This document shows positions 20,295-53,598 of a stretch of DNA of 64,000 bases, piece after piece; within the stretch, counting starts at the first letter, position 1, and the number at the start of each line of letters is the position of its first letter. The notes beneath the pieces are model-generated. The model saw only the letters and a program-made list of their open reading frames with translations, was not told where the DNA came from and ran no database searches. Both the position numbers and the translations under genes were made by a program. Location: NCBI RefSeq assembly GCF_010692725.1, contig NZ_JAAFZB010000096.1, positions 124,001 through 188,000 of the forward strand, written 5' to 3'. Source of the stretch: Flavihumibacter soli (lineage in GTDB: Bacteria > Bacteroidota > Bacteroidia > Sphingobacteriales > Sphingobacteriaceae).

Positions 20295-20337
20295 TGACAA
20301 CGATCATTCTGTCAGCCCACGATCTGCTGCAACTTTG
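20295..20337 (+). promoter_or_regulatory. Predicted activator site and -7 box for the gene at 20360
   Basis: The palindrome TGACAACGATCA (TGAY-N4-RTCA) lies at 20295-20306. A -7-like box CAACTTTG lies at 20330-20337. The distance from palindrome centre to the last base of the box is 36.5 bp, as for three other genes in the window, which resembles a class II CRP/FNR-type position. The box has one mismatch to TAnnTTTG. Confidence 0.55.
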
Positions 20338-20359
20338 TAGTACAAAAAAACGACAGACA

Positions 20360-20716
20360 ATGGCAACACATAGCATTCAATCAAATTCACCAGTTCAAGT
20401 GACTTTCCCGGCAAGCCTTAATTTTGTAAGAAAGTTCAACGACTTTGCTGACAGCCAGCAAAAGTGGGCGATTGCCTACTTCATTGGCTCCTTGATGTTG
20501 ATCGGAAGTTTCTTTCTTCCTGTTACTTTCCTGATGGTATATAGCCTGAACGGGCCGGTCATCCCTTTTCTGGGTATCAGTATGATCTCATTCTTCGTTT
20601 CGCTTATCGCCAACATGAGTGGCATGGGTATCAGGGCATGCCTTTACAGTTTCTTTTTCAGCATACTATTACACCTGGGCATGATGCTGTCAGCCTTCGC
20701 AGGATTTTATTTCTAA
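20360..20716 (+). CDS. Small inner-membrane protein of unknown function
   Basis: The protein is 118 residues from the ATG at 20360. The in-frame start at 20294 is rejected because a predicted operator and promoter lie between the two. The N-terminal 35 residues are soluble. Three or four membrane segments follow (WAIAYFIGSLMLIGSFFLPV, VIPFLGISMISFFVSLIA, LYSFFFSILLHLGMMLSAFA). The layout (helix-rich N-terminus, GMGIR loop) suggests a small integral membrane protein, but I do not recognise a family. The upstream palindrome shared with ldhA, ccoNO and RIC suggests induction at low oxygen. A strong terminator follows, so it is monocistronic. Confidence 0.7.
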   Translation: MATHSIQSNSPVQVTFPASLNFVRKFNDFADSQQKWAIAYFIGSLMLIGSFFLPVTFLMVYSLNGPVIPFLGISMISFFVSLIANMSGMGIRACLYSFFFSILLHLGMMLSAFAGFYF

Positions 20717-20738
20717 TTTGATTATTTTTTAGTTGATC

Positions 20739-20772
20739 AGGCTATGGCATTGAGGATGCTGTAGCCTTTTTT
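20739..20772 (+). terminator. Rho-independent terminator after the gene at 20360
   Basis: A 12-bp stem (AGGCTATGGCAT / ATGCTGTAGCCT, two G-T wobbles) with a 5-nt loop is followed by a T-rich tract (TTTTTCTTT). It separates the small membrane protein from pta. Confidence 0.8.
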
Positions 20773-20890
20773 CTTTAATAGATTTTCAGTTCTTTTATAT
20801 CATCCATGTATTCATTCAATTGACATTATTTAAAACAGAACCGCTTCGTTTGAATTAATAAAGATTGTTGCTTCTATTAATCTTCATGTA

Positions 20891-22984
20891 ATGACCAAGA
20901 CCATCTTCATCGCCTCCGCAGAACCACATTCCGGAAAATCCATTATTGCTTTAGGACTTGTCAATATGCTACTCGGGAAGGCCCAAAAGATCGGGTATTT
21001 CAAGCCGATCATCAATGAGGATCAGGCCGGGAAAAAGGATGTTCATATCGAAACGATTATGAGTTATTTCGATCTCCCGATCAACTATGAAGACACATAC
21101 GCCTTTAAAAGACCCGAAGCACTGCAGCGACTCGAAAATAAGGGTCAGGGCGAGATGATAGACATCATCATTAATAAGTTTAAGAAGCTGGAGGAAAACT
21201 ATGATTTCACTGTCGTTGAGGGAAGTGATTTTCTGGGCGAAGGGATAGCCTTCGAATTTGAGGCGAATGTGGGAATTGCAAAAAACCTGAGTGCACCGGT
21301 GATCATCGTAATTTCCGGCGCCGGCAAGACCACCGCACAGATCGTCAATTCTGCTTTGAGTATCGCACGCAGCTTTGAAAACCGTGATGTACAGGTGTTA
21401 TCAATAGTTGCCAATAAAGTAAATCCGGAGCAGATAGAGGATGTGAAGGAATTATTGACATCCCAGCTGTCAAAGGATATCATACTGGCCATTATTCCAA
21501 TAGATAAAGGACTTCAAAGCCCTACAATGAAGGAAATCCTTGACAACCTGGGTGGAAAGTTGCTGTTTGGTGAGGATTCCCTGTCGAATAAAGTCGATAA
21601 CTTCGTTACCGGCGCTATGCAAGTGCCTAACTTCCTCAATCATATCGCAGAGAATTTGTTGATTGTTACTCCGGGTGACAGGGGGGACATAATAATCTGT
21701 GCTCTACAGGCTAACCTGTCTACAAATTATCCTAAAATAGCGGGAATAGTTCTTACCGCCGGCACGGAGCCTGAGGAACCAATTATTCGCCTGATAGAGG
21801 GGCTCCAGACAACCGTTCCTATTATTTCCGTGAAAACAGGCACTTTTCAGACAACTACACAAGTTGGTGCTATACAGTCTAAAATCACTCCGGATAACAG
21901 TAAGAAAATTGAGCTTGCCATTAATACATTCGAGAAGTATGTCGATATGCAGGCGCTGGAAGATAAGATCGTCACATTTAAGCCAGAAGGTATTACACCC
22001 CACATGTTTCAGTACCAGCTGACCAAGTGGGCAAAAAGCCAGAAAAAGCATATCGTTTTGCCGGAAGGTAACGATGATCGGATCCTTAAAGCCGTAGCAC
22101 GTTTAATCAGCCAGGAAATAGTTGATCTCACACTTCTCGGTGACCCTTCGAAAATTGCAGCCTCTATCAAACGACTGGGCCTGAACCTTGACCTGAGCCG
22201 AATCCGGATCGTTAATCCTGCCGATTCAGAATATTACAATGACTACGTCGAGACTCTTTTCGAATTGCGGAAAAATAAAAACGTAACACTTGAAATGGCC
22301 AGGGACCTGATGACCGATGTTTCATATTTCGGAACCATGATGGTTTACAAAGGTCACGCTGACGGCATGGTTTCAGGAGCCGTCCACACTACCCAGCATA
22401 CAATCAGACCTGCCTTGCAGTTCCTTAAAACCAAGCCCGGAGTTTCAGTTGTTTCCTCCGTTTTCTTTATGTGCCTGCCCGACCGGGTGTCCGTATTCGG
22501 TGACTGCGCAGTAAATCCAAATCCTACAGCTGAGCAACTGGCCGAAATCGCCATCTCATCTGCGGAAAGCAGCAAACGTTTCGGAATCGAGCCGCGGATT
22601 GCCATGCTCTCCTACTCTTCCGGAACCTCAGGCGAAGGTGAAGACGTGATCAAAGTGCGGCGGGCTACAGAAATTGTAAAGCAAAAGAGGCCTGACCTTA
22701 AGGTAGAGGGGCCGATCCAGTATGATGCAGCAGTTGACTCGGTAGTGGGAAGTCAGAAAATGCCGGATTCTGAAGTAGCAGGAAAGGCAAGTGTCCTTAT
22801 CTTTCCTGATTTGAATACCGGAAACAATACTTATAAAGCAGTTCAGCGGGAGACAGGCGCGCTCGCGATAGGGCCAATGCTTCAGGGGCTTAATAAACCC
22901 GTTAATGATCTCAGCCGCGGCTGCACAGTTGACGACATCTTCAATACTGTCATTATTACGGCTATTCAATGCCAGGAAAATTAA
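20891..22984 (+). CDS. pta: Phosphate acetyltransferase (long, three-domain form)
   Basis: This 697-residue enzyme converts acetyl-CoA and phosphate to acetyl phosphate. Domain order is an N-terminal BioD-like P-loop domain (IFIASAEPHSGKSIIALGL), a central DRTGG-type domain (TPGDRGDIIICALQANLS, about residues 250-350), and the C-terminal catalytic PTA domain from about residue 375. The catalytic domain includes LPEGNDDRILKA, HADGMVSGAVHTT, CAVNPNPTAEQLAEIA and SYSSGTSGEGEDV. The length is typical of the long form. ackA follows after 33 bp, so the pair makes ATP and acetate during overflow or low-oxygen growth. It sits immediately before the oxygen-sensing kinase genes. Confidence 0.96.
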   Translation: MTKTIFIASAEPHSGKSIIALGLVNMLLGKAQKIGYFKPIINEDQAGKKDVHIETIMSYFDLPINYEDTYAFKRPEALQRLENKGQGEMIDIIINKFKKLEENYDFTVVEGSDFLGEGIAFEFEANVGIAKNLSAPVIIVISGAGKTTAQIVNSALSIARSFENRDVQVLSIVANKVNPEQIEDVKELLTSQLSKDIILAIIPIDKGLQSPTMKEILDNLGGKLLFGEDSLSNKVDNFVTGAMQVPNFLNHIAENLLIVTPGDRGDIIICALQANLSTNYPKIAGIVLTAGTEPEEPIIRLIEGLQTTVPIISVKTGTFQTTTQVGAIQSKITPDNSKKIELAINTFEKYVDMQALEDKIVTFKPEGITPHMFQYQLTKWAKSQKKHIVLPEGNDDRILKAVARLISQEIVDLTLLGDPSKIAASIKRLGLNLDLSRIRIVNPADSEYYNDYVETLFELRKNKNVTLEMARDLMTDVSYFGTMMVYKGHADGMVSGAVHTTQHTIRPALQFLKTKPGVSVVSSVFFMCLPDRVSVFGDCAVNPNPTAEQLAEIAISSAESSKRFGIEPRIAMLSYSSGTSGEGEDVIKVRRATEIVKQKRPDLKVEGPIQYDAAVDSVVGSQKMPDSEVAGKASVLIFPDLNTGNNTYKAVQRETGALAIGPMLQGLNKPVNDLSRGCTVDDIFNTVIITAIQCQEN

Positions 22985-23017
22985 AACCAAACAGCAAGGC
23001 TTTACTTCACCGATAAC

Positions 23018-24229
23018 ATGAACATATTTATTATCAATTCCGGAAGCAGTTCCATCAAATATCAATTGTTTAAAATGCCCGTCGAACAACCTGTTTGCAG
23101 TGGTATGATTGAAAGGATCGGGCTTGAAAATTCATTAATAAAACATATAAGCTTCTTCAACAGCGAGGAAAAAACCATAGAACGGACATTAGATCTTGCA
23201 GACCATGAAGCCGGACTACAAGAGGTCTTAAAGCTGTTAACAGACGAAGAAACCGGTGTGATCAAAAATCCGGAGGAAATCTACGCAGTTGGTCACCGCG
23301 TAGTTCACGGAGGTGAGGCTTTCTCGGTGACGGCTTTTATCACGGAAGAGGTTAAGGATAAGATCAGGCAATTGTTTCCCCTCGCGCCTTTGCACAATCC
23401 CGCGAATTACATGGGTATCGTTGTGGCGGAGCGAATATTTACAGCCGCAAAGCAAATAGCCGTCTTTGATACAGCCTTTCATCAAACAATGCCGGAAAAG
23501 GCATTCAGGTATGCCCTTCCAAAGTCCTTTTACATCAATCAGAAGATCAGGGCATACGGCTTCCATGGCACCAGTCATAAATATGTGACTGAAAAAGCCT
23601 TAAAATACCTAAATAATCCCCTGGCAAAGATAATAACTATTCACCTGGGCAATGGTTGCAGTATGGCAGCGGTGCAGGATGGGAAGTGTATAGATACCAG
23701 TATGGGTTTCGGTCCTCTGAGCGGTCTTATTATGGGTACCAGAAGCGGCGATATTGATCCATCCATCGTTTTCCACCTTATCAATCAGTTGGGATATGAC
23801 CCGGAACAGGTAAACACGCTTTTGAACAAAAGAAGCGGTATGTTGGGAATGACCGGGTTCAGTGATATGCGTGATATAGAGAACTCGATCAATGAAGGTA
23901 ATGAAGATTCTGAACTCGCCAGTGAACTCTATGCTTACCGCATACAAAAATATATAGGCGCCTACGCTGCTGCCCTTAACGGACTCGATGCTATTGTGTT
24001 CACTGCAGGAGTGGGCGAAAATGATATCAGCATGCGTCAGCGTGTTTGTGACAATCTGGATTTCCTGGGCATTGTTGCGGATGCCGACAAAAACAATATA
24101 AGATCCCGTGAGATTAGAGAGATCAGTAAAGAAACATCCAGAGTTAAGATCCTGGTGATACCGACCAACGAAGAACTTGAAATCGCGCGGCAATGTGTCG
24201 AACTATTAGTAGCAGACGCTCAGGGCTGA
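23018..24229 (+). CDS. ackA: Acetate kinase
   Basis: This 403-residue ASKHA kinase transfers phosphate from acetyl phosphate to ADP. Family signatures are MNIFIINSGSSSIKYQLF at the N-terminus, GHRVVHGGE, YGFHGTSHKYV, IHLGNGCSMAAVQDGK, SMGFGPLSGLIMGTRSGDIDP and FTAGVGEND. The length is normal. It is in an operon with pta. Confidence 0.97.
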   Translation: MNIFIINSGSSSIKYQLFKMPVEQPVCSGMIERIGLENSLIKHISFFNSEEKTIERTLDLADHEAGLQEVLKLLTDEETGVIKNPEEIYAVGHRVVHGGEAFSVTAFITEEVKDKIRQLFPLAPLHNPANYMGIVVAERIFTAAKQIAVFDTAFHQTMPEKAFRYALPKSFYINQKIRAYGFHGTSHKYVTEKALKYLNNPLAKIITIHLGNGCSMAAVQDGKCIDTSMGFGPLSGLIMGTRSGDIDPSIVFHLINQLGYDPEQVNTLLNKRSGMLGMTGFSDMRDIENSINEGNEDSELASELYAYRIQKYIGAYAAALNGLDAIVFTAGVGENDISMRQRVCDNLDFLGIVADADKNNIRSREIREISKETSRVKILVIPTNEELEIARQCVELLVADAQG

Positions 24230-24393
24230 CATCGAGTGAACTGAACCTTTATCCTTTATCAGCAGGAAGGCGCTCTTAAGAATACTGCAAGCCTGTTAAG
24301 CTGCTCATCTCAATGCCGGACAGTCTGATATGCAAAGCTTATTTGTTATATTCCAAACCACTGGTCTGCTAAAAAAAATTAAATTTGCGATGA

Positions 24394-25590
24394 ATGAACA
24401 ATGCCGCCCTGTTAAGTTCCATTATCAAAAATGCCATTGATGGTATAATCACTATTAGTAACCGCGGGATAATCGATACAATAAATCCTTCCGCATGTGA
24501 GCTTTTCGGATATGAACCGGCCGATGTAATTGGGAAGAACATTAAATTCTTAATGCCCAATCCTTACAGGGACCATCATGACGAATATATTGCCCGATAT
24601 CAACGGACGGGCACCCCGCACATAATCGGTATCGGGCGTGAAGTACAGGGACTGAAAAAAGATGGTACCGTTTTTCCTTTTCGCTTGGGAGTAAGCGAAG
24701 TCAGATATGAGGATACCGTCATCTATGCAGGGTTTATTCATGATCTGACTAAAGAAAAGGAAGACGAAGAAAAAATCCGGGAATACGCCGTTGAACTTGA
24801 GAAACTCGTCGAAGACCGGACAGCTACACTAAGAAGCATGGTTGAGGCCCTGGAAGCCACCAAAGAAGAGGTTAGTCAATCACTGGAAAAGGAAAAAGAG
24901 CTTAATCAGTTGAAGAGCCGCTTTGTGTCAATGGCTTCCCACGAATTCAGAACTCCCTTAAGCTCCGTTCAACTGTCCGCTTCATTGATAGATAAATATG
25001 CGCAGAATTTTGACAACCTGAACATTTCAAAGCATGTCAATAAGATCAAAAATTCAGTTGGTAATCTGACTGGTATACTCAATGATTTCCTGTCCCTGGA
25101 AAAATTAGAAGCCGGAAAAACGGAAGCGTCCTTGCGCAGCTTTGACCTGGTAAAGCTAGCTGAAGAAATAACAGAGGAAATGCAGCTGGTAGCTAAACAA
25201 AATCAGACGATTATGTATCAGCATACGGGTTTAGGCAGCAAGGTGAATCTGGATCAAAACCTGTTAAAGAATTGCATCATCAACCTGGTTGCGAATGCAA
25301 TCAAATATTCCGGAGAAAATACCTTCATCGAATTCAATACCGAGATCACAGATACGGAGTGTATAATTACAGTTAAAGATAACGGGATAGGTATTCCTCA
25401 AGCTGATCAGAAGCATTTGTTCCAGCCATTTTTCAGAGCCCATAATACAGGCAATATCCCGGGGACTGGCTTAGGGCTCAATATAGTCGCCAGATATACC
25501 AGTTTGATGAATGGCAAAGTCCGGTTCGAAAGCATCCAAAATAAGGGAACTCAGTTTACCATCACATTTGCAAACGAGAATGAAAACTAA
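24394..25590 (+). CDS. FixL-like heme-PAS oxygen-sensing histidine kinase
   Basis: This 398-residue soluble kinase has a PAS domain (about residues 8-125), a coiled-coil linker rich in Glu/Lys (125-175), a HisKA domain with SHEFRTPL (phospho-His near residue 183), and a HATPase_c domain with NLVANAIKYSGE, DNGIGIP and GTGLGLNIV. In the PAS domain, residues aligning with the Bradyrhizobium FixL heme pocket are conserved: H62 (His200, proximal ligand), R68 (Arg206), H76 (His214), I77 (Ile215), R82 (Arg220, the oxygen-state switch) and L98 (Leu236). It should bind heme and lose kinase activity when oxygenated, by analogy. No membrane segment is present. The 3' end overlaps the response regulator by 11 bp. 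Confidence 0.88.
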   Translation: MNNAALLSSIIKNAIDGIITISNRGIIDTINPSACELFGYEPADVIGKNIKFLMPNPYRDHHDEYIARYQRTGTPHIIGIGREVQGLKKDGTVFPFRLGVSEVRYEDTVIYAGFIHDLTKEKEDEEKIREYAVELEKLVEDRTATLRSMVEALEATKEEVSQSLEKEKELNQLKSRFVSMASHEFRTPLSSVQLSASLIDKYAQNFDNLNISKHVNKIKNSVGNLTGILNDFLSLEKLEAGKTEASLRSFDLVKLAEEITEEMQLVAKQNQTIMYQHTGLGSKVNLDQNLLKNCIINLVANAIKYSGENTFIEFNTEITDTECIITVKDNGIGIPQADQKHLFQPFFRAHNTGNIPGTGLGLNIVARYTSLMNGKVRFESIQNKGTQFTITFANENEN

Positions 25591-26629
25591 CATCCTGATC
25601 ATCGAAGACAACGATGACATTCGTGAAAGCACAGCCGAAATCCTCGATCTGGCAAATTACAACGTCATTACTGCTGAGAACGGAAAAAAAGGCGTCGACC
25701 TTGCCCAAAAGCATCTTCCGGATCTCATTCTCTGCGATATCATGATGCCTGAACTGGATGGCTATGGTGTACTATATCTTTTGAATAAAAATCCAAAGAC
25801 CGCCACTATCCCTTTTATTTTCCTGACTGCTAAGGTTGAAAGGCTCGATATGCGAAAGGGTATGGAGATGGGCGCTGATGATTACCTTACCAAGCCATTT
25901 GATGATATGGAGCTCTTAAACGCCATTGAAAGCCGGCTTCATAAAAAACAGCGGCAGGAGGCTTTTTACAGCAAGTCATTAGAAAATCTCAATCAGCTTG
26001 CGTCCCGGGGAAACGGTATTGAGGAACTGAAAAAAGTGGTCGCCGAACGTAAGATCCGATTTATTAAGAAAAAACAGATCATTTACTACGAAGGTGATGC
26101 TGCAACAGGAATCTATCTGATTATCTCCGGCAAAGTCAAAACGGTAAAGTTAAGTGCAGATGGCCGGGAATTACTTACCGGAATGTACGGCGCGGACGAG
26201 TATCTCGGTATCCAGGCCCTTCTTTCCAACGAATCATACAATGAAACAGCAGAGGCGGTAGAGGATACTTCCATCTGCCTGATATCAAAAGATACAGTTG
26301 AACAGATCCTGAGTAAATATGCTGATGTCAGCCGGGAGTTTATCAAGATACTATCAAACAACCTGGTTGAAAAAGAAGAACAACTCCTGCAATTGGCTTA
26401 CCATTCCGTGAGAAAGCGAATGGCACAAACACTTCTTAAGCTATCTACTCAGTCAAATACTGCAAATACCCTTAGAATCTCAAGGGAAGACCTGGCTGCC
26501 ATGGCAGGGATAGCGACCGAAACGGTAAGTCGCACGCTAAGTGATTTTAAAGAAGAAGGGATTATCGAGAAAAAAGGAAGCCAGATTGATATTCTTGATC
26601 CGGTCAGATTGCAAAAAATGAAAAACTGA
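25580..26629 (+). CDS. Response regulator fused to a CRP/FNR-type DNA-binding module (FixJ-FixK-like)
   Basis: The protein is 349 residues from the ATG at 25580; an in-frame ATG at 25511 lies inside the kinase gene and adds unrelated sequence. The N-terminal receiver has the acidic pocket (IIEDNDD), phospho-acceptor Asp near residue 53 (CDIMMPELDG), the Thr (FLTA) and Lys (TKPFDD). A short linker leads to a cyclic-nucleotide-binding-like fold (about residues 150-265) and a CRP-type helix-turn-helix (about 285-345). The recognition helix reads ETVSR, the same key residues (Glu, Ser, Arg) that FNR uses. No FNR-type cysteine cluster is seen, so input probably comes from phosphorylation by the kinase. 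It likely activates the TGAY-N4-RTCA promoters in this window. Confidence 0.88.
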   Translation: MKTNILIIEDNDDIRESTAEILDLANYNVITAENGKKGVDLAQKHLPDLILCDIMMPELDGYGVLYLLNKNPKTATIPFIFLTAKVERLDMRKGMEMGADDYLTKPFDDMELLNAIESRLHKKQRQEAFYSKSLENLNQLASRGNGIEELKKVVAERKIRFIKKKQIIYYEGDAATGIYLIISGKVKTVKLSADGRELLTGMYGADEYLGIQALLSNESYNETAEAVEDTSICLISKDTVEQILSKYADVSREFIKILSNNLVEKEEQLLQLAYHSVRKRMAQTLLKLSTQSNTANTLRISREDLAAMAGIATETVSRTLSDFKEEGIIEKKGSQIDILDPVRLQKMKN

Positions 26630-26691
26630 TAGGCGTCACATTTCCCGCTGACCTCACTCATACCAATACCATTCCAGCAGGTGTAGATTTG
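26627..26691 (+). promoter_or_regulatory. Predicted activator site and promoter of ldhA-hemN-trHb
   Basis: The palindrome TGATAGGCGTCA (26627-26638) overlaps the stop codon of the response regulator gene. A perfect -7 box TAGATTTG lies at 26684-26691. The centre-to-box distance is 58.5 bp, identical to ccoNO and close to the class I position of CRP/FNR activators. The leader to the ldhA ATG would be about 15 nt. Confidence 0.65.
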
Positions 26692-26709
26692 TATAAATAA
26701 TCTGCTGAC

Positions 26710-29107: not shown

Positions 29108-29145
29108 TTATGAAAACTGTGCCTGATGGCACTTAATAACTTACA

Positions 29146-34747: not shown

Positions 34748-34918
34748 TTACTCTTGATTTTCGTCATCCAATGGAAGATTACGCATATAGGAAATGTGCT
34801 CTTTATTCATCTTGATTAAAAGCAGAGCTATTCCTACAAAAAACAAAAAGAATATGCATAGCGAAATGATCAGGTAGATCTCATCGCCGGCTATCTTATC
34901 TATAAATTGTCTGAACAT
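34748..34918 (-). CDS. ccoQ: Small CcoQ-like subunit
   Basis: This 56-residue frame encodes one membrane segment (EIYLIISLCIFFLFFVGIAL) followed by a basic, then acidic tail ending DDENQE. Its position between ccoNO and ccoP, its size and its topology all fit CcoQ, the small stabilising subunit of cbb3 oxidase. The sequence itself is too short to prove the family. The start is the ATG at 34918, 40 bp after ccoNO, and the stop leaves 3 bp to ccoP. Confidence 0.75.
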   Translation of the reverse strand: MFRQFIDKIAGDEIYLIISLCIFFLFFVGIALLLIKMNKEHISYMRNLPLDDENQE

Positions 34919-37106: not shown

Positions 37107-37171
37107 TAAAACTATTTCTAAGGCAATGCATGACGGATGACGGTAATTTTACAAAAAACTGATCTTCGTCA
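37107..37171 (-). promoter_or_regulatory. Predicted activator site and promoter of ccoNO-Q-P-G-H
   Basis: The palindrome TGATCTTCGTCA on the plus strand (37160-37171) matches TGAY-N4-RTCA. A -7-like box TAGTTTTA (37114-37107, minus strand, one mismatch to TAnnTTTG) lies downstream. The centre-to-box distance is 58.5 bp, identical to the ldhA promoter. It lies between ccoS and ccoNO, so the oxidase genes have their own start of transcription in addition to any read-through from ccoI. Confidence 0.6.
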
Positions 37172-39820: not shown

Positions 39821-41620
39821 TTAATCAGCCAGCTCATTTTCTAAACGAAGCAGCGCTATCCGCATTTCAGCTTCCTCAATCTGGCACTTCATCCTGTCGA
39901 TATAAGTCTCCGCCTGGTTATGAAAATTGGACATGAGCCCTTTATAATATGCTATACCCTGCAGCAGCTGATCGCTAAATTTCGCGAAATACTTTGCCTT
40001 CTTTTCACTGAGGTCATTCAGATGTGTTTCTATATCTTTTTTCAGATAGTCGATATAGAGGTTAAGCTCGTTAATAAACATATTCGGTCTTTGTGAGCCG
40101 TGGAGCAGGTTTAAGCTACCATAAATATGCTTCACCATCTCGTCCAGTGAGAAAACACCTGAGAACCAGGCCACATTGGGTCCGGGACAGATTGCGACGG
40201 CATTATTCTCCCTGGGCTTAAGCATATCATTCTTACGATATGCCGATGCGGTAAGGCCTTCGCAAAGACATAGCTTCTCCACGATACTCTCATACTTCAC
40301 CTGGTACTCTTCCCCCGTTAGCTCCCCGGCCTGCAGTTGCCTGATCTTCAGGTCCTGGTATTCGCGGGAGGCCGTACAGATGGGCTGTGCAGTAAATTCT
40401 GTATTCGAAACGAGGAACTTCTTAGTACATGGGCTACCAGGGCGTCCTTTAGCGATCCGCTCCAGGCGCTGTTTTTCCGCAGTACTTTTCCTGAAATTGT
40501 TGAATGGTATTCCCAGGGGCGATGAACCGCTGATATAGAAATCGTCCTGGGATGCATCGACAAGTGTAGACAACGTAGCATTATCCACATTCGTAGCTTC
40601 AGGAACCAGCAGAAAGGGACTTCCCCAACCGGTCGCGTCCATTCCGTAATAATCAAGCAGAAAACTGTTCTCTTCTGCCGTACCGATTCCTCCCTGTACA
40701 CTTATCTTCATATCCGGCGCCTGAGCGACCGGTACTGATTTCGCTGCCAGGACAGGTTGGTAAATGGAAAATAGTTCAGCCACCATATCCTGCCTTCTTA
40801 ACTTGAATTCTTCCAATATCGGGCCGAGGAGAAATCCTTCTGTAGCGAATGCATGGCCCCCGCAATTCAATCCCGACTCTATCCGGAACTCCGAAACCCA
40901 TATTCCTTTTTTTGCGAGAAACTTTGCCTGAATGAAAGCAGAACGGAAGTCACTTACTTTCAGGATGACTCTTTTTTCGATATCCCCGCTTTCATCTGGT
41001 AGAAAACACCTGAAATTTTCAAGGTAACTGTATAGTCTCGGGTTCATTCCCGCAGAGAGCACTACCGACGATTTCAGGGTGCTTTCCGCAAAGCCGCGCA
41101 AAGCAGCTAAGGCGTCGCTATATTCTTCTGCCAGGGGTTCCTTTTTTGCCGACAGGTTCATCTTATCCACCTTCGACATGATGTTCACATCAATGGAACC
41201 GGCGCGCATCTCCGCCCGCAGTTCTTGCTGAAGCGCCGACTTTAACTCCACATCAGAGGTTCCAAGCATTTCACGATACTTCCTTTTCAAAGGCGACGAT
41301 TCGGGCAGCAGATCGAAATACCGGGTAATATCAGATAACAGTTCGAACGGAGAGTTACGAAGTGTCTCAAAATCTTCCTTCACTAACCTTTCCATCAGGT
41401 TAAGATAGGCAGTTATACGTTTTGCCCGACTGTCCTGTTCCCGGGGCTCTATTGGTTTAAAGACTTCGTTCCTTTTCTCTGTATGATACTTTCTCATCCT
41501 CTCGATCAGCATATCGTCAACTATTGAAGCAACGGATGAAATGCCAAACCTGGCGACCTTTATAGGAGTATCGACAGAGAAACCTAAACCAAGAACGGGA
41601 ATGTGAAATGTGTGACCCAT
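39821..41620 (-). CDS. Unrecognised 599-residue protein, possibly an FMN-dependent (nitronate-monooxygenase-like) enzyme with a Cys-rich region
   Basis: I do not recognise a named family. The N-terminus (FHIPVLGLGFSVDTPIKVARFG) and the stretches GLNCGGHAF (about residue 250), QGGIGTAEEN (about 310) and DATGWGSPFLLVPEA (about 328) resemble the glycine-rich phosphate- and flavin-binding loops of nitronate monooxygenase/FabK-type TIM barrels. A region with Cys near residues 397, 415, 450, 452 and 476 (GSPCTKKF, PICTAS, LCLCEG, AICPGP) could hold a metal or Fe-S centre. The last 100 residues form helices with coiled-coil character. No signal or membrane segment is present. It sits between ccoI and the nos genes and has the shared low-oxygen promoter pattern. 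Confidence 0.6.
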   Translation of the reverse strand: MGHTFHIPVLGLGFSVDTPIKVARFGISSVASIVDDMLIERMRKYHTEKRNEVFKPIEPREQDSRAKRITAYLNLMERLVKEDFETLRNSPFELLSDITRYFDLLPESSPLKRKYREMLGTSDVELKSALQQELRAEMRAGSIDVNIMSKVDKMNLSAKKEPLAEEYSDALAALRGFAESTLKSSVVLSAGMNPRLYSYLENFRCFLPDESGDIEKRVILKVSDFRSAFIQAKFLAKKGIWVSEFRIESGLNCGGHAFATEGFLLGPILEEFKLRRQDMVAELFSIYQPVLAAKSVPVAQAPDMKISVQGGIGTAEENSFLLDYYGMDATGWGSPFLLVPEATNVDNATLSTLVDASQDDFYISGSSPLGIPFNNFRKSTAEKQRLERIAKGRPGSPCTKKFLVSNTEFTAQPICTASREYQDLKIRQLQAGELTGEEYQVKYESIVEKLCLCEGLTASAYRKNDMLKPRENNAVAICPGPNVAWFSGVFSLDEMVKHIYGSLNLLHGSQRPNMFINELNLYIDYLKKDIETHLNDLSEKKAKYFAKFSDQLLQGIAYYKGLMSNFHNQAETYIDRMKCQIEEAEMRIALLRLENELAD

Positions 41621-41921
41621 ATAATATTATATTAATACAGGGACAAAGGAGGAAATAATCAGCCGGGAAAAATATGATGTCAGTCACAATTCCTTCGAAA
41701 CCTATTCGATCGCCTGGATTTTACTTTCACAGTACATTTCCGGAAATGGGAAACCCGCCTTTCCAGAGGAGTAATACAGATCAGGTAGCAATTAAATTAA
41801 ATCCGGAACATCCCCAATCTGCCAGCCAAAACAAAACCCATCGAAATGGCCATATCAACTCCGGTTTAGTATATTTGGCCGCGCCTAAGTCCGGCGATCG
41901 CACGACTGACAATCAATAAAC
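41621..41921. other. Divergent intergenic region between the 599-residue protein and the membrane protein gene at 41922
   Basis: Besides the activator palindrome at 41675-41686 this 301-bp region holds a perfect -7 box TATATTTG (41870-41877, plus strand), 44 bp before the ATG at 41922. No palindrome lies at 36 or 58 bp from that box. A 81-codon frame at 41674-41919 looks like chance. Confidence 0.5.
41644..41686 (-). promoter_or_regulatory. Predicted activator site and -7 box for the 599-residue protein gene
   Basis: The palindrome TGATGTCAGTCA at 41675-41686 matches TGAY-N4-RTCA. A -7-like box CTCCTTTG (minus strand, 41651-41644; TTTG kept, TA not) gives a centre-to-box distance of 36.5 bp, as at three other genes. 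The weak box is the soft point. Confidence 0.5.
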
Positions 41922-47259: not shown

Positions 47260-47270
47260 ATTTAATCGTA

Positions 47271-49262
47271 CTATCTTTTTAACAACGAATCTCCCGCTGG
47301 CGAATTTTTACCTAAACTAAAGGATATTGCCACATTCGAGCCTTTGGGTGAAACCCTCACATAACCCGACATCTCCTGGTGAAGCGCACTGCAGAAGTCA
47401 GTACAGTAAATAGGATACATTCCCACTTTCTGCGGAACCCATTTTAAAGTAGTTGTTTCTCCAGGCATAATAAGCAACTCAGCATTTATCGCGCCTTTGA
47501 TAGCAAATCCGTGTGGTACATCCCAATCCTGCTCGAGGTTTGTGACGTGGAAATATACTTCATCTCCCAGTTTGACTCCTTCAATATTATCCGGAGAGAA
47601 GTGTGACCGCATGGCAGTTATATACACATGCACCTTATTTCCTTCACGAACAATTTTTGAGTTCTTTTCACCCATTGTGACGTAAGGATGCTTATTCTCT
47701 TCTAACTTGAAAGTCTTAACCGAATTCTTAACAACTTTATCTGCTGGTATCGACTGAGCATAATGGGGTTCTCCGATTGTTGGATAATCAATCAGCAGCT
47801 TCATCTTTTCGCCACTGATATCAAATAATTGAGCGCTTTGAGCTAATTCCGGTCCTGTAGGCAGGAACCTGTCTTTGGTGATCTTGTTGTACGCCATCAG
47901 GTACTTCCCGTAGGGCTTCATCGTATCGCCGCCCGGAATACTCAGGTGACCCGGAGAATAGTAAGTAGGCTGCCTGTCAATAACTTTCAGGTCTTTGATA
48001 TTCCATTTAACGATCTCTGACGAGATAAAGAATGTTGTATAAGCATTCCCTTTACCGTCAAACTCCGTATGCAATGGTCCTAAGCCTGGCTTTTTAACTT
48101 CACCATACAAAGCTGACTCATATTTTAATACCGGAATACCACCGTAGCTTCCATCAAAGGTTTTATCCGCAATAGCCTTTTTGATCTTACTCATAGCAAA
48201 TACAGGGATTAATGCTGCAAGTTTTCCACTTCCCACGATATATTCGCCTGTCGGATCGACGTCAACTCCATGAGGAGATTTAGGGCAAGGAATCATATAG
48301 GCGATTTCAGGGAAATCTTTTACATCTAGGACAGTTACTTCGGTCAGCATCTTGGAGGTAGCTGTGTGAGTAGACTCATCAAATTTGTTATGAGCATATT
48401 TGACAGTTTGTTTCCTACCCTTCCCAGCCTTGACATATTCTTCCGCTTTTTTCCAGTTCACCGCAAGAATATAATCCTTGTCATTCTTGGAAGCATTTAC
48501 TTCAAGTAAGGTGTGCGCCTGCTCGGAGTTATACGTGCTGAAAAAGAACCATCCGCTGCTCGGCCCCTTACCGCTGTGGCTAAGGTCAAAGTTCATCCCT
48601 GGCAATATAAGCTGGAAAGCGATTTTCATATTGCCATCTTCAGGTGCCACGCTGATAAAACTGATAGTACCTTTGAAATTCTTCTTGTACGTATCGATCG
48701 CAACATCACCGGAAGCATCGTCCATCGGCACACTAAAACGGGTACCCGCAACAACATACTCGGTATTTTCTGTGATGAATGGAGAAGAGTGATTACCTGC
48801 ACTATTCGGAATCTCAATGATCTCCGCCGTGCGGAACGTCCTCAAGTCTATACGAGCTATACGAGGTGTATTGTTGGCATTAGCGAATATCCAGCGACCG
48901 TCCGTTTCACCCTTAGTTTGCGAAAGGTCAAGATGATGCTGGTCATCCCAGGGAACCATTCCATGCGATGTATTTAACATCGGCTTGGTTTCCTCGCTGT
49001 ATCCCCAACCCTTCTCGGGATCTACCGAGAAAACCGGAATTACCCGAAGCAAGCGCGCGGAGGGAATGCCATATACGCTCACCTGACCGCTAAAACCGCC
49101 CGACACGAAGTTATACAACTCATCATATTTGCCTGGCTGCACATAAACTCTTGATGCAGCATCGCCACTAACGGCGTCCCCTGCATTTTTAGGTTTACAC
49201 GCTGAAATGCTCAACATTACGGCTGCTGAGAGTAACATAATTAAAAATAGAACCCTTTTCAT
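47271..49262 (-). CDS. nosZ: Nitrous oxide reductase, clade II (Sec-type, lipoprotein signal)
   Basis: The protein is 663 residues from the ATG at 49262; an in-frame upstream start at 49328 adds 22 residues before the signal. The N-terminus is a Sec lipoprotein signal with lipobox ISAC, not a twin-arginine signal, as expected in clade II. The seven-bladed propeller has copper-centre histidines (for example DQHHLDLS near residue 107 and CPKSPHGVDVDPTG). The C-terminal cupredoxin has the CuA motif CTDFCSALHQEM near residue 625. The enzyme reduces N2O to N2. It follows a cytochrome c lipoprotein that may feed it electrons. Confidence 0.95.
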   Translation of the reverse strand: MKRVLFLIMLLSAAVMLSISACKPKNAGDAVSGDAASRVYVQPGKYDELYNFVSGGFSGQVSVYGIPSARLLRVIPVFSVDPEKGWGYSEETKPMLNTSHGMVPWDDQHHLDLSQTKGETDGRWIFANANNTPRIARIDLRTFRTAEIIEIPNSAGNHSSPFITENTEYVVAGTRFSVPMDDASGDVAIDTYKKNFKGTISFISVAPEDGNMKIAFQLILPGMNFDLSHSGKGPSSGWFFFSTYNSEQAHTLLEVNASKNDKDYILAVNWKKAEEYVKAGKGRKQTVKYAHNKFDESTHTATSKMLTEVTVLDVKDFPEIAYMIPCPKSPHGVDVDPTGEYIVGSGKLAALIPVFAMSKIKKAIADKTFDGSYGGIPVLKYESALYGEVKKPGLGPLHTEFDGKGNAYTTFFISSEIVKWNIKDLKVIDRQPTYYSPGHLSIPGGDTMKPYGKYLMAYNKITKDRFLPTGPELAQSAQLFDISGEKMKLLIDYPTIGEPHYAQSIPADKVVKNSVKTFKLEENKHPYVTMGEKNSKIVREGNKVHVYITAMRSHFSPDNIEGVKLGDEVYFHVTNLEQDWDVPHGFAIKGAINAELLIMPGETTTLKWVPQKVGMYPIYCTDFCSALHQEMSGYVRVSPKGSNVAISFSLGKNSPAGDSLLKR

Positions 49263-49384
49263 GTTTATAAGATTAACTTTTGGAGACAAAGACAAAGGAT
49301 TGTCCGTACGATGAAAAACCCTCATCATTGTTAAAATTCATTTAATTTTCCTGCATTTCCGGTCTCGGCCGGCTTGTTGAATTA

Positions 49385-49861
49385 TTACTTTACACCGTCG
49401 ACCTTCCGCATATATTCATATACGTTTCGGGCATCGTCATCAGAAAGATTTTGATTAGGCATTCGAACCATACAAATTTCCAGCATTGCCTGAGCCTTGG
49501 GATCTTTGTCGATCATAACATCTGTATTTGTCATGAAGTTCATGATCCACTCTGGTGCGTGACGCGTGGTAACACCTGCCCAGCCCGGGCCAACCAGTCT
49601 CTCATCAGTCATTTTATGACATGAGGTACATTTGAGGTCTGCAACCTTCTCGCCCTTCTCAGCCATCCCCGCATCGAGATTTGGCTTGACCTCTACGTTA
49701 GTAAACTTTCCTTCGCCACGATTAGGATCATAACTTGGATTTCCCCCTTCAGTGGTTTCAGATGTTGCTGCGGAAGTAGTGTCGCTACCCGTGCCATCCC
49801 CGGAACCCGCACAAGCGGCGACAAACAAGACCAGGGCACTAAGACAAAGTAATTTTTTCAT
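49385..49861 (-). CDS. Mono-heme cytochrome c lipoprotein
   Basis: This 158-residue protein has a lipoprotein signal with lipobox VAAC, a Ser/Thr/Gly-rich linker, and a cytochrome c domain with one CTSCH heme site. The likely Met ligand is in RMPNQNLSDDDARNVYEYM. It lies 122 bp upstream of nosZ in the same direction, as in many clade II nos clusters, and is a good candidate electron donor to NosZ. Both proteins appear to be lipid-anchored. Confidence 0.9.
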   Translation of the reverse strand: MKKLLCLSALVLFVAACAGSGDGTGSDTTSAATSETTEGGNPSYDPNRGEGKFTNVEVKPNLDAGMAEKGEKVADLKCTSCHKMTDERLVGPGWAGVTTRHAPEWIMNFMTNTDVMIDKDPKAQAMLEICMVRMPNQNLSDDDARNVYEYMRKVDGVK

Positions 49862-50168
49862 AATCTAAATTTTTAATCATTAATGTATTACAAGAATCAG
49901 ATTAAGCGACAAGTCTCACTTTTACAGCAATAGAAACTATCGTCTTTGTATTGTTTTTGTCATTTCAATATCCCTACCAAACAAATGGTATAAAATTTAG
50001 TTTACATCGTCCTCTTGTAATCCGGATCTAACCTCTTATCCTACGCGCTGTTCCTTAATTTAAAATTAGTCCTTATTAGGTTGCTGTTAAATGACCACTC
50101 TTACTCAGAAAAATGATCTGGAACATTCTTAATAAAAGACATTAGAATCTCTTATAAGCTGAAAATTT
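49862..50168. other. Promoter region of the cytochrome c-nosZ genes
   Basis: This 307-bp stretch is AT-rich and must carry the nos promoter. I find no perfect TAnnTTTG box on the minus strand. The best palindrome match (TGATCTGGAACA, 50114-50125) has one mismatch and sits too far upstream. A partial AAGCGACAAG, like half of an HcpR site, occurs at about 49904-49913. I see no open frame. Confidence 0.4.
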
Positions 50169-50597
50169 TTATTTTAGGAAGTATCGATTTTGCTCATATT
50201 CTTTAACCATTTCATTAAGGGATTTTCTGCTAAATTCGGCCAACAGTTGGCTTTTGAGGGGCTTAATTTGATCATGCAGGGGGCAAGGCCCGGCATCCGA
50301 ACAACTCTTCAGTCCCATGACACACGCCGTAAATAACTCATCGCCATCAATTGCACGGACTATATCGATCAAAAAAACCGAATGCCGATCATCTATATAA
50401 AACCCGCCGTTCGGACCCTTTGCCGACGATAAGACCTGTTTACGGGAGAGTGCCTGGAGTATCTTACCCGTGAAGTGCATCGGAGAGCCGATTGCCTCCG
50501 CGATCTCTATTATCCCTGCCCTCTTACCCAGATTACTGGTATAAGCAACGTAAACTGCTGCTCTGATGGCATACTCACAGGATTTTGATAATAGCAT
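50169..50597 (-). CDS. Rrf2-family transcriptional regulator with putative Fe-S cysteines
   Basis: This 142-residue winged-helix regulator has the SCEYAIRAAVYVAY start and the KGPNGGFYIDD wing typical of the Rrf2/IscR/NsrR family. Three cysteines (C92, C99, C105, pattern CX6CX5C) are followed by PLHD, so a [2Fe-2S] or [4Fe-4S] cluster is likely. NsrR and IscR have CX5CX5C. It probably senses nitric oxide or Fe-S status. It lies 31 bp after the RIC gene on the same strand and probably controls that unit or the nos genes. Confidence 0.85.
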   Translation of the reverse strand: MLLSKSCEYAIRAAVYVAYTSNLGKRAGIIEIAEAIGSPMHFTGKILQALSRKQVLSSAKGPNGGFYIDDRHSVFLIDIVRAIDGDELFTACVMGLKSCSDAGPCPLHDQIKPLKSQLLAEFSRKSLNEMVKEYEQNRYFLK

Positions 50598-50628
50598 TCC
50601 GGTTTATATTACGGGTAAGGTTTATCCT

Positions 50629-51585
50629 TTAGCTTTCCAACAAGTCTCTTTCGAGTTTGATTGCTTTGGGGAATAGTATGTTATTTTCCAGGTGTACATG
50701 GTTGTACAGATCAATTTCAAATTCTTCCAACTTCCTGAAAAGGATTGTATAAGAGTTACAGGCGTCTGCCGGCAAGCTGTAATCCGATGTCAGCTCCCGT
50801 AACTCCGTAAGGTCTTCGCCTGCCTGCTCATGCTCCATTTCCATCACCATGATAGGGCTCAACACACCACCAAAGGGATTACTGCAGATCTCGGAACCTT
50901 TGTTTCCTGCATTAACCAATTGCCTGATGAACGGAAAGAGTATCTTCTCTTCCTTACTCATATGCAGAACCAGGTCCTGTGCGATTCGGGCGAATACTTC
51001 GGCCACCTTAACAAGTTCCGGATGCCTTCCGCCATGAACACGCGCTACCTTATTTGCAATTTCCAGGATAAACGGGATACTTTCCCGGCAGTAGCTGTGA
51101 TGAGTGTTAACCACGTAATCAGTCAGGAAATCAAGTTCCCATTCATCAAAATTCAATACGCTGTTAGCTGACCTGTCTACAGCTTCAAGTTCCGATTTGA
51201 TTACCTCAAGGCTGATCCCCTTTGCTTTGCTGACCTCTGAGAGTGTCTTTTTACCACCGCAGCAAAAGTCTATACCGAGCTTTTTAAAAGCCTGGGCTTT
51301 CCGGTAATCCCTCGCTACTATCTCCCCAATCGTTTCCTCCGGAATCTCTTCGTCGATGATCCTCTTACCAATTGAAACTCTCCACAATTCGGGCCCACTC
51401 TCAAGATAAGCCCATGTAACTATCTGCCCCCTTTCGGCAAGGAGCTGGTAATAAAGTGGCTTTGGATCATGATCGTTGTGAATTATAAATGAATTTCCGG
51501 GCACTAGCGAATCAAATTTTTGAAAGATTGTGGGATGTTTAAATCGCGGTTCTATCACCGTTACATCAAGAATATCTGTTTCCAT
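50629..51585 (-). CDS. ric: Iron-sulfur cluster repair di-iron protein (RIC/ScdA) with N-terminal DUF2249
   Basis: This 318-residue three-domain protein has a DUF2249 domain (about 1-75; NDHDPKPLYYQLL, GPELWRVSI), a DUF542 domain with IDFCCGGKKTL (Cys pair at 108-109), and a hemerythrin-like di-iron domain (about 155-310; HHSYCRESIPFILEI, HMSKEEKILFPFI, EMEHEQAGEDL, HVHLENNILFPKA). RIC proteins repair Fe-S clusters damaged by nitric oxide or peroxide. A predicted activator site lies 50-61 bp upstream. The Rrf2 regulator is downstream in the same unit. Confidence 0.93.
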   Translation of the reverse strand: METDILDVTVIEPRFKHPTIFQKFDSLVPGNSFIIHNDHDPKPLYYQLLAERGQIVTWAYLESGPELWRVSIGKRIIDEEIPEETIGEIVARDYRKAQAFKKLGIDFCCGGKKTLSEVSKAKGISLEVIKSELEAVDRSANSVLNFDEWELDFLTDYVVNTHHSYCRESIPFILEIANKVARVHGGRHPELVKVAEVFARIAQDLVLHMSKEEKILFPFIRQLVNAGNKGSEICSNPFGGVLSPIMVMEMEHEQAGEDLTELRELTSDYSLPADACNSYTILFRKLEEFEIDLYNHVHLENNILFPKAIKLERDLLES

Positions 51586-51604
51586 TTTCTTATTATATAG
51601 AGGA

Positions 51605-51646
51605 CAAATTTATCTTTTAATAAGCCCTCACTAATGACAAGGGTCA
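51605..51646 (-). promoter_or_regulatory. Predicted activator site and promoter of RIC-Rrf2
   Basis: The perfect palindrome TGACAAGGGTCA (TGAC-N4-GTCA, 51635-51646) lies upstream of a perfect -7 box TAAATTTG (minus strand, 51612-51605). The centre-to-box distance is 35.5 bp, a class II-like position. The site is between RIC and the end of the membrane protein gene at 51662. Confidence 0.7.
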
Positions 51647-51661
51647 CATATCCGGGTAAGC

Positions 51662-52876
51662 TTAATCACATTTGCCAGGCTTCGCAGGAAGCGCCGGAAC
51701 GAGGAGCGTAAATCGCCTGAGCTGAATGAAATACAGGATCCCGGCGAAGGGAAAGAGGGAGGAGATAACCAGCAAGCATAGCTGGAAATGAGGTATTCCA
51801 ACGTTAAAGGAGGAAAACAGGGGCTGTATAAAAAGAACTGAAAGGTAAAGGGCAACTACGACCATATAAAAACCGTTCAGTAAAGACACCCGGATACTGG
51901 CGCCAAAAAAACCTTTTTTCACAAACTGATCTATTATCAGAGGCATAATACAGCCCAACGTAAGCAAATGTACATACCCGATGATCAGGTTTCGCTCCTG
52001 GAAAACCCAGGTACCGATTATCGGAATACACAGCGCAACCTGTAATGCTATTTTAATTGAGATGGCAGCAAGCGCTATCTTTACGAGGAAAGAAAAGCTA
52101 TTACGTTCATGCCTGTAATAGAGGCAGAGTTTAATCCAGCACAGAAGATTCAGAGTCGAAGCCGCAAGCGAGAGAATCCATATCCATACAGGTGGATCAA
52201 CCCACAAGGTGAATATCAAAAATAGGGGAATAACTGAAATAACGAATGTTAAAAGCCATCTGCGCATCTTTATATGCCTGGTTCCGTTTAAATAAGCTGA
52301 TGCAAACAGGCCAAGTGCAGCGAGAAGCATAAATCCATTCATCTGGAAATGCAGGTAAAAATAAATAGCATCCTGATACAAGGCTGTGTTTCGAAATCCC
52401 GAAGCAGCTAACGGAGCCAGTGCGAATGGACCAAGTGATGAAAGGCACATAAATAACAATGATCCATATATCAGAATGCGGGCGGCTTCATTCATCCTTA
52501 TTTGTAAAATCCCCTTCGTACAGATAAGATAGGTAAACCTATAGCCGGTCAGGATAAACAGCGTGGAAAAACTTATAGACACCGGGTGATAGCCATAAAC
52601 GGAAAAACTTACCAGCATCCCCCAGGCACTCAGCTGGGTCACCAGCAAAATAGTTTTGTAAGCCGATGAAAAACTATCCCCAAAAACAGTGTGTATTATC
52701 AGCAAAGAAATGGAAAAGAACATCCAGCCGGAAAAGGCAAAATGAGAATGCGCATGAAGCAGGAACTGGTAATTGCCTGCTGGCAAGCCAAAAACCTGCA
52801 TATAGCGTAAGAGAAGTCCGAACAGGGACAATAGAATAAAATTCGAAATGGCCCATGCGGGGTATCTATTCTGCAT
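51662..52876 (-). CDS. Polytopic membrane protein with conserved histidines (paralogue of the gene at 41922)
   Basis: This 404-residue protein has about twelve membrane segments. LLHAHSHFAFSGW (H41, H43, H45), YFYLHFQMNGF and IGYVHLLTLG match the paralogue at 41922 at the same relative places, while most other residues differ. The two share size and topology, so they arose by an old duplication. I do not recognise a named family. A heme or copper role is possible from the histidines. It lies in the same direction as, and upstream of, RIC. The gap to the hemerythrin-like gene is 137 bp. Confidence 0.7.
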   Translation of the reverse strand: MQNRYPAWAISNFILLSLFGLLLRYMQVFGLPAGNYQFLLHAHSHFAFSGWMFFSISLLIIHTVFGDSFSSAYKTILLVTQLSAWGMLVSFSVYGYHPVSISFSTLFILTGYRFTYLICTKGILQIRMNEAARILIYGSLLFMCLSSLGPFALAPLAASGFRNTALYQDAIYFYLHFQMNGFMLLAALGLFASAYLNGTRHIKMRRWLLTFVISVIPLFLIFTLWVDPPVWIWILSLAASTLNLLCWIKLCLYYRHERNSFSFLVKIALAAISIKIALQVALCIPIIGTWVFQERNLIIGYVHLLTLGCIMPLIIDQFVKKGFFGASIRVSLLNGFYMVVVALYLSVLFIQPLFSSFNVGIPHFQLCLLVISSLFPFAGILYFIQLRRFTLLVPALPAKPGKCD

Positions 52877-53013
52877 AGCATAATTCGCATTGAACTGACA
52901 AGCTCTGAATTTCTCTTACATCAGCTCCCTGGCTGACGGCCAAGCCTCCTAAACTTGCACTACCCTCCCATTCAGCCAGGCGATTATTAAACCCGGGAAG
53001 TCTCCTGATCTCT

Positions 53014-53490
53014 TTAGCCCGCAGGGGAATTCCAGAATTCGGTATGAAAGTCTTCAATAAAAGGCTTATGATCACGGTTTATCGAATTTCCCATTTCCTC
53101 CAGCTGAGCAGCACTCAATCTGTCCTGCAGGTATGGAAACAGTTCGCGCTCTTCGAAGCGTATATGGTCATCCAGCATTCCGGCAAGCTTAAGCAGAAAT
53201 TTCGCTTCCCTTCCGTTACAATCATCAAGTGCCGCAACAGTGGCTTTTATATCCATATGCTCAAACAAGGTACGCTGCTTATATAGGTCTGCATCATCCA
53301 GAAAACTCAGCACAAAATTCTCCTCTTCCCTGAAATGCGGAAATAGAGCCTTTTTTGAAAAATAACGAACATACTCTCTTATCAGATCTGTACTGATCTT
53401 GTATTTCAATCCCTGGCGGATCTTCCAGCCTAATAATAGCCCGTGATGATGATCGCGGGATAAGGGTTGGAGGTTTATGTCTCGTTTCAT
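53014..53490 (-). CDS. Hemerythrin-like domain protein
   Basis: This 158-residue all-helical protein has the di-iron ligands of a hemerythrin-like fold: SRDHHHGLLLGWKIR (first His), HFREEENFVLSFL (His-x3-Glu type), DDHIRFEERELFPYL (His and Glu ligands) and a late His in NRDHKPFIEDFH. Such proteins bind O2 or NO or store iron. The predicted activator site upstream places it in the same regulon as RIC, consistent with a nitrosative or low-oxygen role. Confidence 0.85.
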   Translation of the reverse strand: MKRDINLQPLSRDHHHGLLLGWKIRQGLKYKISTDLIREYVRYFSKKALFPHFREEENFVLSFLDDADLYKQRTLFEHMDIKATVAALDDCNGREAKFLLKLAGMLDDHIRFEERELFPYLQDRLSAAQLEEMGNSINRDHKPFIEDFHTEFWNSPAG

Positions 53491-53555
53491 ATGGGAAAAT
53501 TAAAAGGGGGCATGCCAACCGCTTTTCACAGGCCATCAGGCATTACACTCGCTTA

Positions 53556-53598
53556 CAAAAATGGGCAGAGCTAAACGAGATCAATATGACCGCGGTCA
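53556..53598 (-). promoter_or_regulatory. Predicted activator site and -7 box for the hemerythrin-like gene
   Basis: The fully symmetric palindrome ATGACCGCGGTCAT spans 53586-53599, with its TGAC-N4-GTCA core at 53587-53598. A -7-like box CATTTTTG (minus strand, 53563-53556, one mismatch) gives a centre-to-box distance of 36.5 bp. The leader to the ATG at 53490 would be about 60 nt. Confidence 0.6.

Follow-up and report, generated by a model that had tools for sequence, protein, structure and literature searches.

Paired CRP/FNR-type sites before TAnnTTTG promoters point to a candidate low-oxygen regulon under a FixL-type kinase and a REC-CRP regulator in Flavihumibacter soli

A 64-kb stretch of the Flavihumibacter soli genome (contig NZ_JAAFZB010000096.1, positions 124,001 to 188,000; called here the window, with coordinates counted from its first base) carries six palindromes of the form TGAYN4RTCA, each placed at a set distance from a promoter box resembling TAnnTTTG. 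They precede the gene of a small membrane protein, ldhA-hemN-trHb, ccoNO, the gene of a 599-residue protein, RIC-Rrf2 and a hemerythrin-like gene. We consider it probable that these six promoters make up one low-oxygen regulon governed by a sensor histidine kinase and a response regulator encoded side by side in the window, and that this pair represents a collapsed form of the FixL-FixJ-FixK cascade. The response regulator, called REC-CRP here, combines a receiver domain and a CRP-type activator in one chain. The window is part of a 4.44-Mb genome in 96 contigs.

A pattern search recovered all six palindromes named in a preliminary description of the sequence, at 20295, 26627, 37160, 41675, 51635 and 53587. 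The distances from palindrome centre to the last base of the box were remeasured as 36.5, 58.5, 58.5, 36.5, 35.5 and 36.5 bp, respectively, in agreement with that description, as was the quality of the boxes, two being perfect, three having one mismatch and one retaining only TTTG. In the order of the sites, the boxes read CAACTTTG, TAGATTTG, TAGTTTTA, CTCCTTTG (the TTTG-only case), TAAATTTG and CATTTTTG. Two of the promoters lie on the forward strand. That of the small membrane protein gene (20357..20716, its start at MATHS inferred from related loci) has the palindrome TGACAACGATCA at 20295..20306, 36.5 bp from its box (20330..20337), and an imperfect distal site, TGATTAAGGTCC, 22 bp further upstream (20273..20284). 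In the ldhA-hemN-trHb promoter the palindrome TGATAGGCGTCA is the distal element (26627..26638, 58.5 bp from the box at 26684..26691), with a proximal site, TGACCTCACTCA, at 26649..26660 and hence at 36.5 bp. The TGA of this distal palindrome is also the stop codon of the REC-CRP gene (ATGAAAAACTGA), and the identical letters return in relatives.

The other four promoters are on the reverse strand. Upstream of ccoNO, the distal palindrome TGACGAAGATCA (37160..37171) is found 58.5 bp from the box (37107..37114), and the proximal position is occupied by a degenerate site, AAATTACCGTCA (37138..37149), where relatives have a TCA half-site. The 599-residue protein gene (39821..41620) is preceded by the proximal palindrome TGACTGACATCA (41675..41686), 36.5 bp from its weak box, and no distal half-site was found at the 22-bp position of this promoter. 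RIC-Rrf2 has the proximal palindrome TGACCCTTGTCA (51635..51646), 35.5 bp from the box (51605..51612), with a distal half-site, TGATTAAGCTTA, at 51657..51668. Finally, the hemerythrin-like gene has the proximal palindrome TGACCGCGGTCA (53587..53598), 36.5 bp from the box (53556..53563), and a distal half-site, GTTTCGTTATCA, at 53609..53620.

We looked for the same spacing in relatives, using the loci of REC-CRP orthologues with their flanks (the best 80 of 391) and 20 further stretches. Eleven of these 100 loci were removed as redundant, which left 89 loci (1.73 Mb), all from other genomes. When the distances between intergenic palindromes and boxes were tallied with one mismatch allowed, the two highest peaks stood at 58.5 bp (168 cases) and 36.5 bp (65 cases), against a mean of 8.7 per offset and 27 at the next highest offset. 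Those peaks match the two distances that had been derived from the six sites of a different genome. None of seven control dyads peaked at 58.5 or 36.5 bp in the full set of 100 loci with redundancy kept, their largest count at either distance being 5, at 36.5 bp (dyad mean 1.3). The palindromes themselves were concentrated between genes, with 341 of 497 being intergenic in the loci of the relatives though intergenic DNA makes up 10% of the sequence. Across 100 whole genomes, the source genome included, the perfect motif with a perfect box occurred 140 times at 58.5 bp and 282 times at 36.5 bp, compared with 14 in the backward control in each case.

Conservation in orthologous promoters was assessed in the REC-CRP loci of the relatives by asking for a palindrome within -350 to +60 of each gene. 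It was present for 71 of 72 LdhA, 45 of 48 CcoNO, 38 of 44 599-residue protein and 16 of 21 small membrane protein orthologues, and mostly absent from other genes of the neighbourhood (HemN, 1/66; trHb, 0/13; CcoG, 4/53; CcoI, 2/10; REC-CRP, 10/87). Another set, of 30 CcoNO genes with that of the window among them, yielded 29 with a palindrome within 400 bp and 28 with the box in place. In the aligned LdhA and CcoNO promoters the positions of the site reach 2 bits, and most bases between site and box vary. At several Pedobacter loci (e.g., L111:6991-7157), the genes of the 599-residue and small membrane proteins are divergent neighbours, and the DNA separating them contains two palindromes at a distance of 44 bp from each other.

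The expected conservation of the sites thus held for those four genes and was less complete at the other two promoters, whose loci were taken from the best 30 matches. With the window counted in, RIC had a palindrome at 13 of the best 30 loci, 10 of them with the box in place, at spacings from 35.5 to 37.5 bp, and the hemerythrin gene had one at only 5 of 24 loci, 3 with the box in place. We regard RIC and the hemerythrin gene as weaker candidate members on the basis of these counts. A doubtful but serious alternative is that both promoters are under another regulator, for instance a nitric-oxide sensor such as Rrf2, and that their motif is merely similar. This would account for the incomplete conservation and the variable RIC spacing; it fits less well with the perfect box at eight of the ten RIC loci that have the box in place and with the distal half-site found 22 bp away in both window promoters.

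The presumed sensor is a FixL-type histidine kinase (24394..25590, forward strand) with Pfam matches to PAS, HisKA and HATPase_c. Residues 7-130, its PAS domain, align to the FixL heme domain 1dp6 with an E value of 1.4e-28 (phmmer). The domain keeps the HDxYIxRY segment (HHDEYIARY, compared with RHDSYISRY in 1dp6), which we take to hold the heme histidine, and the GIGR segment, which presumably holds the regulatory arginine; the entry 1y28 differs from 1dp6 at that arginine in the alignments. Against the NCBIfam model FixL_Rhizob, which is named for rhizobia, the kinase scored 161 of 850 bits, below the cut-off, and it would thus be FixL-like rather than a rhizobial FixL. The kinase would bind heme, be inhibited by oxygen and transfer phosphate. 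A kinase of this type adjoins REC-CRP in 86 of 88 cases, with HDxY conserved in 83 of the 86 and both heme-PAS patterns in 78. One kinase next to REC-CRP, in locus L065, has lost the GIGR segment, and other signals may therefore feed the same activator. A palindrome precedes 61 of 87 genes of the FixL-type kinase in relatives, which suggests autoregulation of the kinase in many of them.

REC-CRP (25580..26629, forward strand) has Pfam matches to a receiver, a cNMP-like roll and a Crp helix-turn-helix. Its open reading frame opens at 25511 (372 codons), with the conserved start at about 25580. The recognition helix, TETVSR, is found in 79 of 83 orthologues. Only two cysteines are present, residues 75 and 256 of the 372-residue frame, and there is no N-terminal cysteine cluster. 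The NCBIfam FixK model (Caulobacter) gave 88 of 300 bits, below its cut-off. The source genome encodes three proteins with a cNMP domain (PF00027), of which REC-CRP alone has the Crp helix-turn-helix above the Pfam cut-off. This supports the earlier naming of REC-CRP as the most likely regulator; it probably acts at the six sites, and would bind them and respond to oxygen through the kinase. Consistent with that view, 33 of the 37 genomes that encode full-length REC-CRP have the perfect 58.5-bp pattern, compared with 6 of the 23 that do not (Fisher p 8.7e-7); within the genus, the counts are 12 of 12 and 2 of 8, respectively.

It is unlikely, in our judgement, that the palindromes instead serve an FNR-type protein or another member of the CRP family, even though the TGA-N6-TCA core is common to CRP-family proteins. 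Six relatives devoid of full-length REC-CRP have lone CRP proteins with no receiver domain and with a recognition helix nearly identical to that of REC-CRP; five of the six have an N-terminal CxxC (by eye), and three are encoded near ccoNO. A midpoint-rooted tree built from 23 selected sequences places these lone proteins with the CRP halves of REC-CRP. Four relatives combine ccoNO and a lone CRP in the absence of full-length REC-CRP; three of them (G023, G038 and G040) have a palindrome and box at cco, and the fourth (G029) has the palindrome only. Sites are thus kept at cco genes where there is no full-length REC-CRP, and the motif is not specific to this protein. In the source genome, the candidates for such a role would be the two short cNMP-domain paralogues. 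However, one has no helix-turn-helix match and the other reaches 22.7 of the 27 bits needed for the Pfam cut-off, both are far from REC-CRP and from the lone CRPs in the tree, and neither has the length or the N terminus of the lone FNR-like form. REC-CRP therefore remains our preferred regulator of the six promoters.

The sites at the two distances proved to be members of pairs. In the relatives, 155 of 168 sites at 58.5 bp are paired with a half-site or better lying exactly 22 bp further downstream, which is the 36.5-bp position, whereas other partner offsets have a mean of 1.7 and a maximum of 8; conversely, 50 of 65 sites at 36.5 bp have at least a half-site 22 bp upstream. In the window, a half-site or better at an offset of 22 bp was found in five of the six promoters, that of the 599-residue protein gene being the exception, and 48 other offsets reached at most one of six. 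Among LdhA promoters with a 58.5-bp site, 60 of 66 have TGAN6TCA 22 bp downstream and none has it at six other offsets. A TCA half-site is found at +22 in all 41 CcoNO promoters with a 58.5-bp site, and the six other offsets gave none except 4 TCA half-sites at one of them. The search of 100 genomes, limited to intergenic loci and one per genome, agreed for the 58.5-bp sites, 18 of 22 of which had the partner, whereas only 5 of 25 sites at 36.5 bp with perfect boxes had one (counts obtained after removal of 7 of 29 and 5 of 30 loci, respectively, as coding).

Those data alter one part of the preliminary description, which had split the six promoters into a class I group at 58.5 bp and a class II group at 36.5 bp. 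As 58.5-bp sites rarely stand alone, a separate class I group is not supported. Rather, the proximal position is the common element, and the two apparent groups differ in whether the distal or the proximal site is the perfect one. A distal site appears to depend on the proximal one, which itself can stand alone. Two genuinely separate promoter classes are improbable, even if the perfect palindromes of the window do divide between the two distances and 20 of the 25 sites at 36.5 bp in other genomes have no partner half-site; some of these lone sites may belong to other CRP-family proteins. The comparison with relatives supported the view of that description that low-oxygen genes share a genuine CRP/FNR-type regulon, in which the sites keep a set distance to TAnnTTTG and are conserved.

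The TAnnTTTG box was mapped at -12 to -5 in Flavobacterium psychrophilum (PMC9723704). With the box at the same place here, the site centres would fall at about -41.5 and -63.5. In Escherichia coli, CRP and FNR sit at the former position in class II promoters; the latter is near class I.

The window holds 12 TGAYN4RTCA palindromes in total, of which the preliminary description had named six. The other six (302, 21156, 34755, 43834, 48934 and 60609) have no box at 35.5-37.5 or 57.5-59.5 bp when one mismatch is allowed. By the gene list, 21156, 43834, 48934 and 60609 are coding and 34755 is non-coding; for 302, near the window edge, the gene list and the open reading frame calls disagree. The palindrome at 34755-34766 lies directly upstream of ccoP, and it was left out of the site set as it has no box. 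The whole genome contains 413 palindromes in 4.44 Mb, giving an expectation of about 6 per 64 kb compared with the 12 seen. Per kb of intergenic DNA, the window had 0.85 palindromes (6 in 7.1 kb), nine arbitrarily placed 20-kb stretches of the source genome had 0.089 (2 in 22.4 kb), and the surroundings of REC-CRP orthologues had 1.93 (341 in 176 kb); three control dyads showed no such intergenic excess. These densities use mechanical open reading frame calls, by which 20295 of the window is counted as coding (within a frame opening with GTG) and 34755 as intergenic. When six intergenic positions were drawn at random and the two distances were freely chosen, five of six boxes were reached in none of 3000 sets. 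The six palindromes with their spacings are not due to chance. That they are accidental, or are repressor operators unrelated to oxygen, is most improbable: the four coding palindromes among the 12, the weak box at 41644 and the poorly conserved hemerythrin site would suit that view, but the enrichment statistics and the 2-bit site positions amid variable bases argue against it, and sites held at a constant 36.5 bp from the end of the box would fit activation better than repression.

Within the source genome, the anticipated enrichment was seen in part. With one mismatch allowed, 15 matches were found at 36.5 bp compared with 3 in the controls, but the 13 matches at 58.5 bp, compared with 8, do not amount to a clear excess. 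By the open reading frame calls, 4 of the 13 and 5 of the 15 are intergenic, and four of those nine are inside the window; the calls rate 20295 and the site of a rhodanese gene as coding owing to possibly spurious frames. Outside the window, the genes following such sites are of HlyD type or encode pirin, YceI and a metallo-beta-lactamase/rhodanese, and none is clearly a respiration gene. Given the few intergenic sites and the absence of a clear respiration gene behind those outside the window, what is convincing of the regulon in the source genome is a physical island of about 33 kb. The genes around it comprise pta, ackA, the PAS histidine kinase, REC-CRP, ldhA, hemN, the globin, cco genes and the 599-residue protein gene, with a nos region that includes Rrf2, RIC and hemerythrin-like genes also nearby.

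Metallo-beta-lactamase/rhodanese genes with a 36.5-bp site occur in the source genome and in two others (L196, L306 and L314), making this gene a possible further member. Four palindromes of the source genome (L006, L011, L018 and L019) have a perfect TAnnTTTG box at a distance of 60.5 bp. One of the short CRP paralogues is the neighbour of L011, and the other lies about 4 kb from L019; an extended sequence after the palindrome is common to L006, L011 and L019 (by eye). It may be that these form a separate regulon of a short CRP.

Besides the poorly conserved hemerythrin site, the cco sites kept without full-length REC-CRP, the lone 36.5-bp sites and the unclear 58.5-bp count in the source genome, several results weigh against a single regulon under the kinase/REC-CRP pair. 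Most of the relatives belong to Pedobacter or Mucilaginibacter, and they do not count as independent samples. Eight of the 86 adjacent kinases do not match both heme-PAS patterns, and the promoter of the window's own kinase gene contains no palindrome. The co-occurrence of the 58.5-bp pattern with REC-CRP is confounded, as the ldhA site adjoins the REC-CRP gene and loss of the locus means loss of the site. Moreover, among 673 genes near REC-CRP with no homologue in the window, 128 have a palindrome and 64 of these also have the box. They are not a clean negative control, as unlisted regulon members and shared promoters may be among them.

Two of the putative targets have no assigned family. 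The 599-residue protein gave no family match, and a profile search found no convincing PDB relative by sequence; it is predicted to adopt a flavin TIM-barrel oxidoreductase fold, nearest to FabX and PfaD. Its invariant cysteines, such as C398, C415, C451, C453 and C478, could hold a cluster. For the small membrane protein, Pfam and NCBIfam searches gave no match.

Taken together, the arrangement suggests the following model. The kinase would hold heme in its FixL-type PAS domain and be active without oxygen, and the active kinase would phosphorylate the receiver of REC-CRP, which would then bind TGAY-N4-RTCA as a dimer. At most of these promoters, two dimers would sit two helical turns (22 bp) from each other, with their centres 36.5 and 58.5 bp before the end of TAnnTTTG. 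The proximal dimer, at about -41.5, would make class II contacts with sigma/RNA polymerase and so activate transcription, with the distal dimer, at about -63.5, strengthening activation. The genes served would be those of fermentation (ldhA), oxygen-independent heme synthesis (hemN), the cbb3 oxidase (ccoNO), iron-sulfur repair and nitrosative defence (RIC and Rrf2), and the hemerythrin-like, small membrane and 599-residue oxidoreductase-like proteins.

REC-CRP resembles FNR of Enterobacteria in its CRP-family helix-turn-helix with the E..SR recognition residues and in the TGA-N6-TCA core of its putative sites; FNR acts from about -41.5, where the proximal sites here would also lie. It differs from FNR in having no N-terminal cysteine cluster, and oxygen sensing would therefore lie in the kinase. 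The lone FNR-like CRPs of other Bacteroidota, several of them near cco, have in common with REC-CRP a related CRP half, a nearly identical recognition helix and similar sites; they are distinguished by the CxxC of five of the six and by the missing receiver.

The closest parallel is the FixL-FixJ-FixK cascade of rhizobia and Caulobacter. There, FixL uses heme to sense oxygen, FixK has no Fe-S cluster, and the alphaproteobacterial FixK/FnrN consensus is TTGANCNNGATCAANG (PMC4999443). The cascade and the system described here have in common a heme-PAS kinase, a CRP/FNR activator devoid of an Fe-S cluster and a similar motif, although the outer T/A of the FixK motif is not conserved here. They would also be alike in the control of cco and heme biosynthesis, the sites here lying before ccoNO and ldhA-hemN. 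In contrast with a stand-alone FixK induced by FixJ, the receiver and the CRP activator are in one protein here, and the transcriptional step of FixJ is thus missing; the rhizobial cascade would be shortened to one step by the fusion of the receiver to a FixK-like activator. The TAnnTTTG promoters with tandem sites and the presence of ldhA and RIC among the targets are further differences. A variant FixL-type cascade to fixNOQP exists in Rhizobium, in which hFixL signals via FxkR to induce FixK. There, FixK is made as the product of the cascade, and the accessible part of the source mentions no REC-CRP fusion (PMC7888657).

We found no FixL, FNR or REC-CRP regulators like these described for Bacteroidota in the open literature, subscription journals being mostly outside the scope of the search, and low-oxygen control in this phylum appears to be little described. 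On balance, we lean somewhat towards a broader reading, in which a one-step oxygen switch from FixL to a REC-FixK protein would act as a low-oxygen regulator in Sphingobacteriaceae and other families of the class, either replacing an Fe-S FNR or working next to it. At its TAnnTTTG promoters the activator would function as a pair of cooperating dimers, spaced by 22 bp and located at about -41.5 and -63.5, with the distal dimer needing the proximal one and each promoter tuned by which of its sites is perfect.

If this is true, the motif, the promoter geometry, the regulator, the sensor and the list of targets would all be testable in laboratory strains of Pedobacter or Mucilaginibacter. The system hints at a way in which a relay of three proteins can be condensed into two. 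As a related lone CRP with cysteines serves other lineages, the task of sensing oxygen may have shifted between an Fe-S cluster and a heme kinase with no change in the DNA site.

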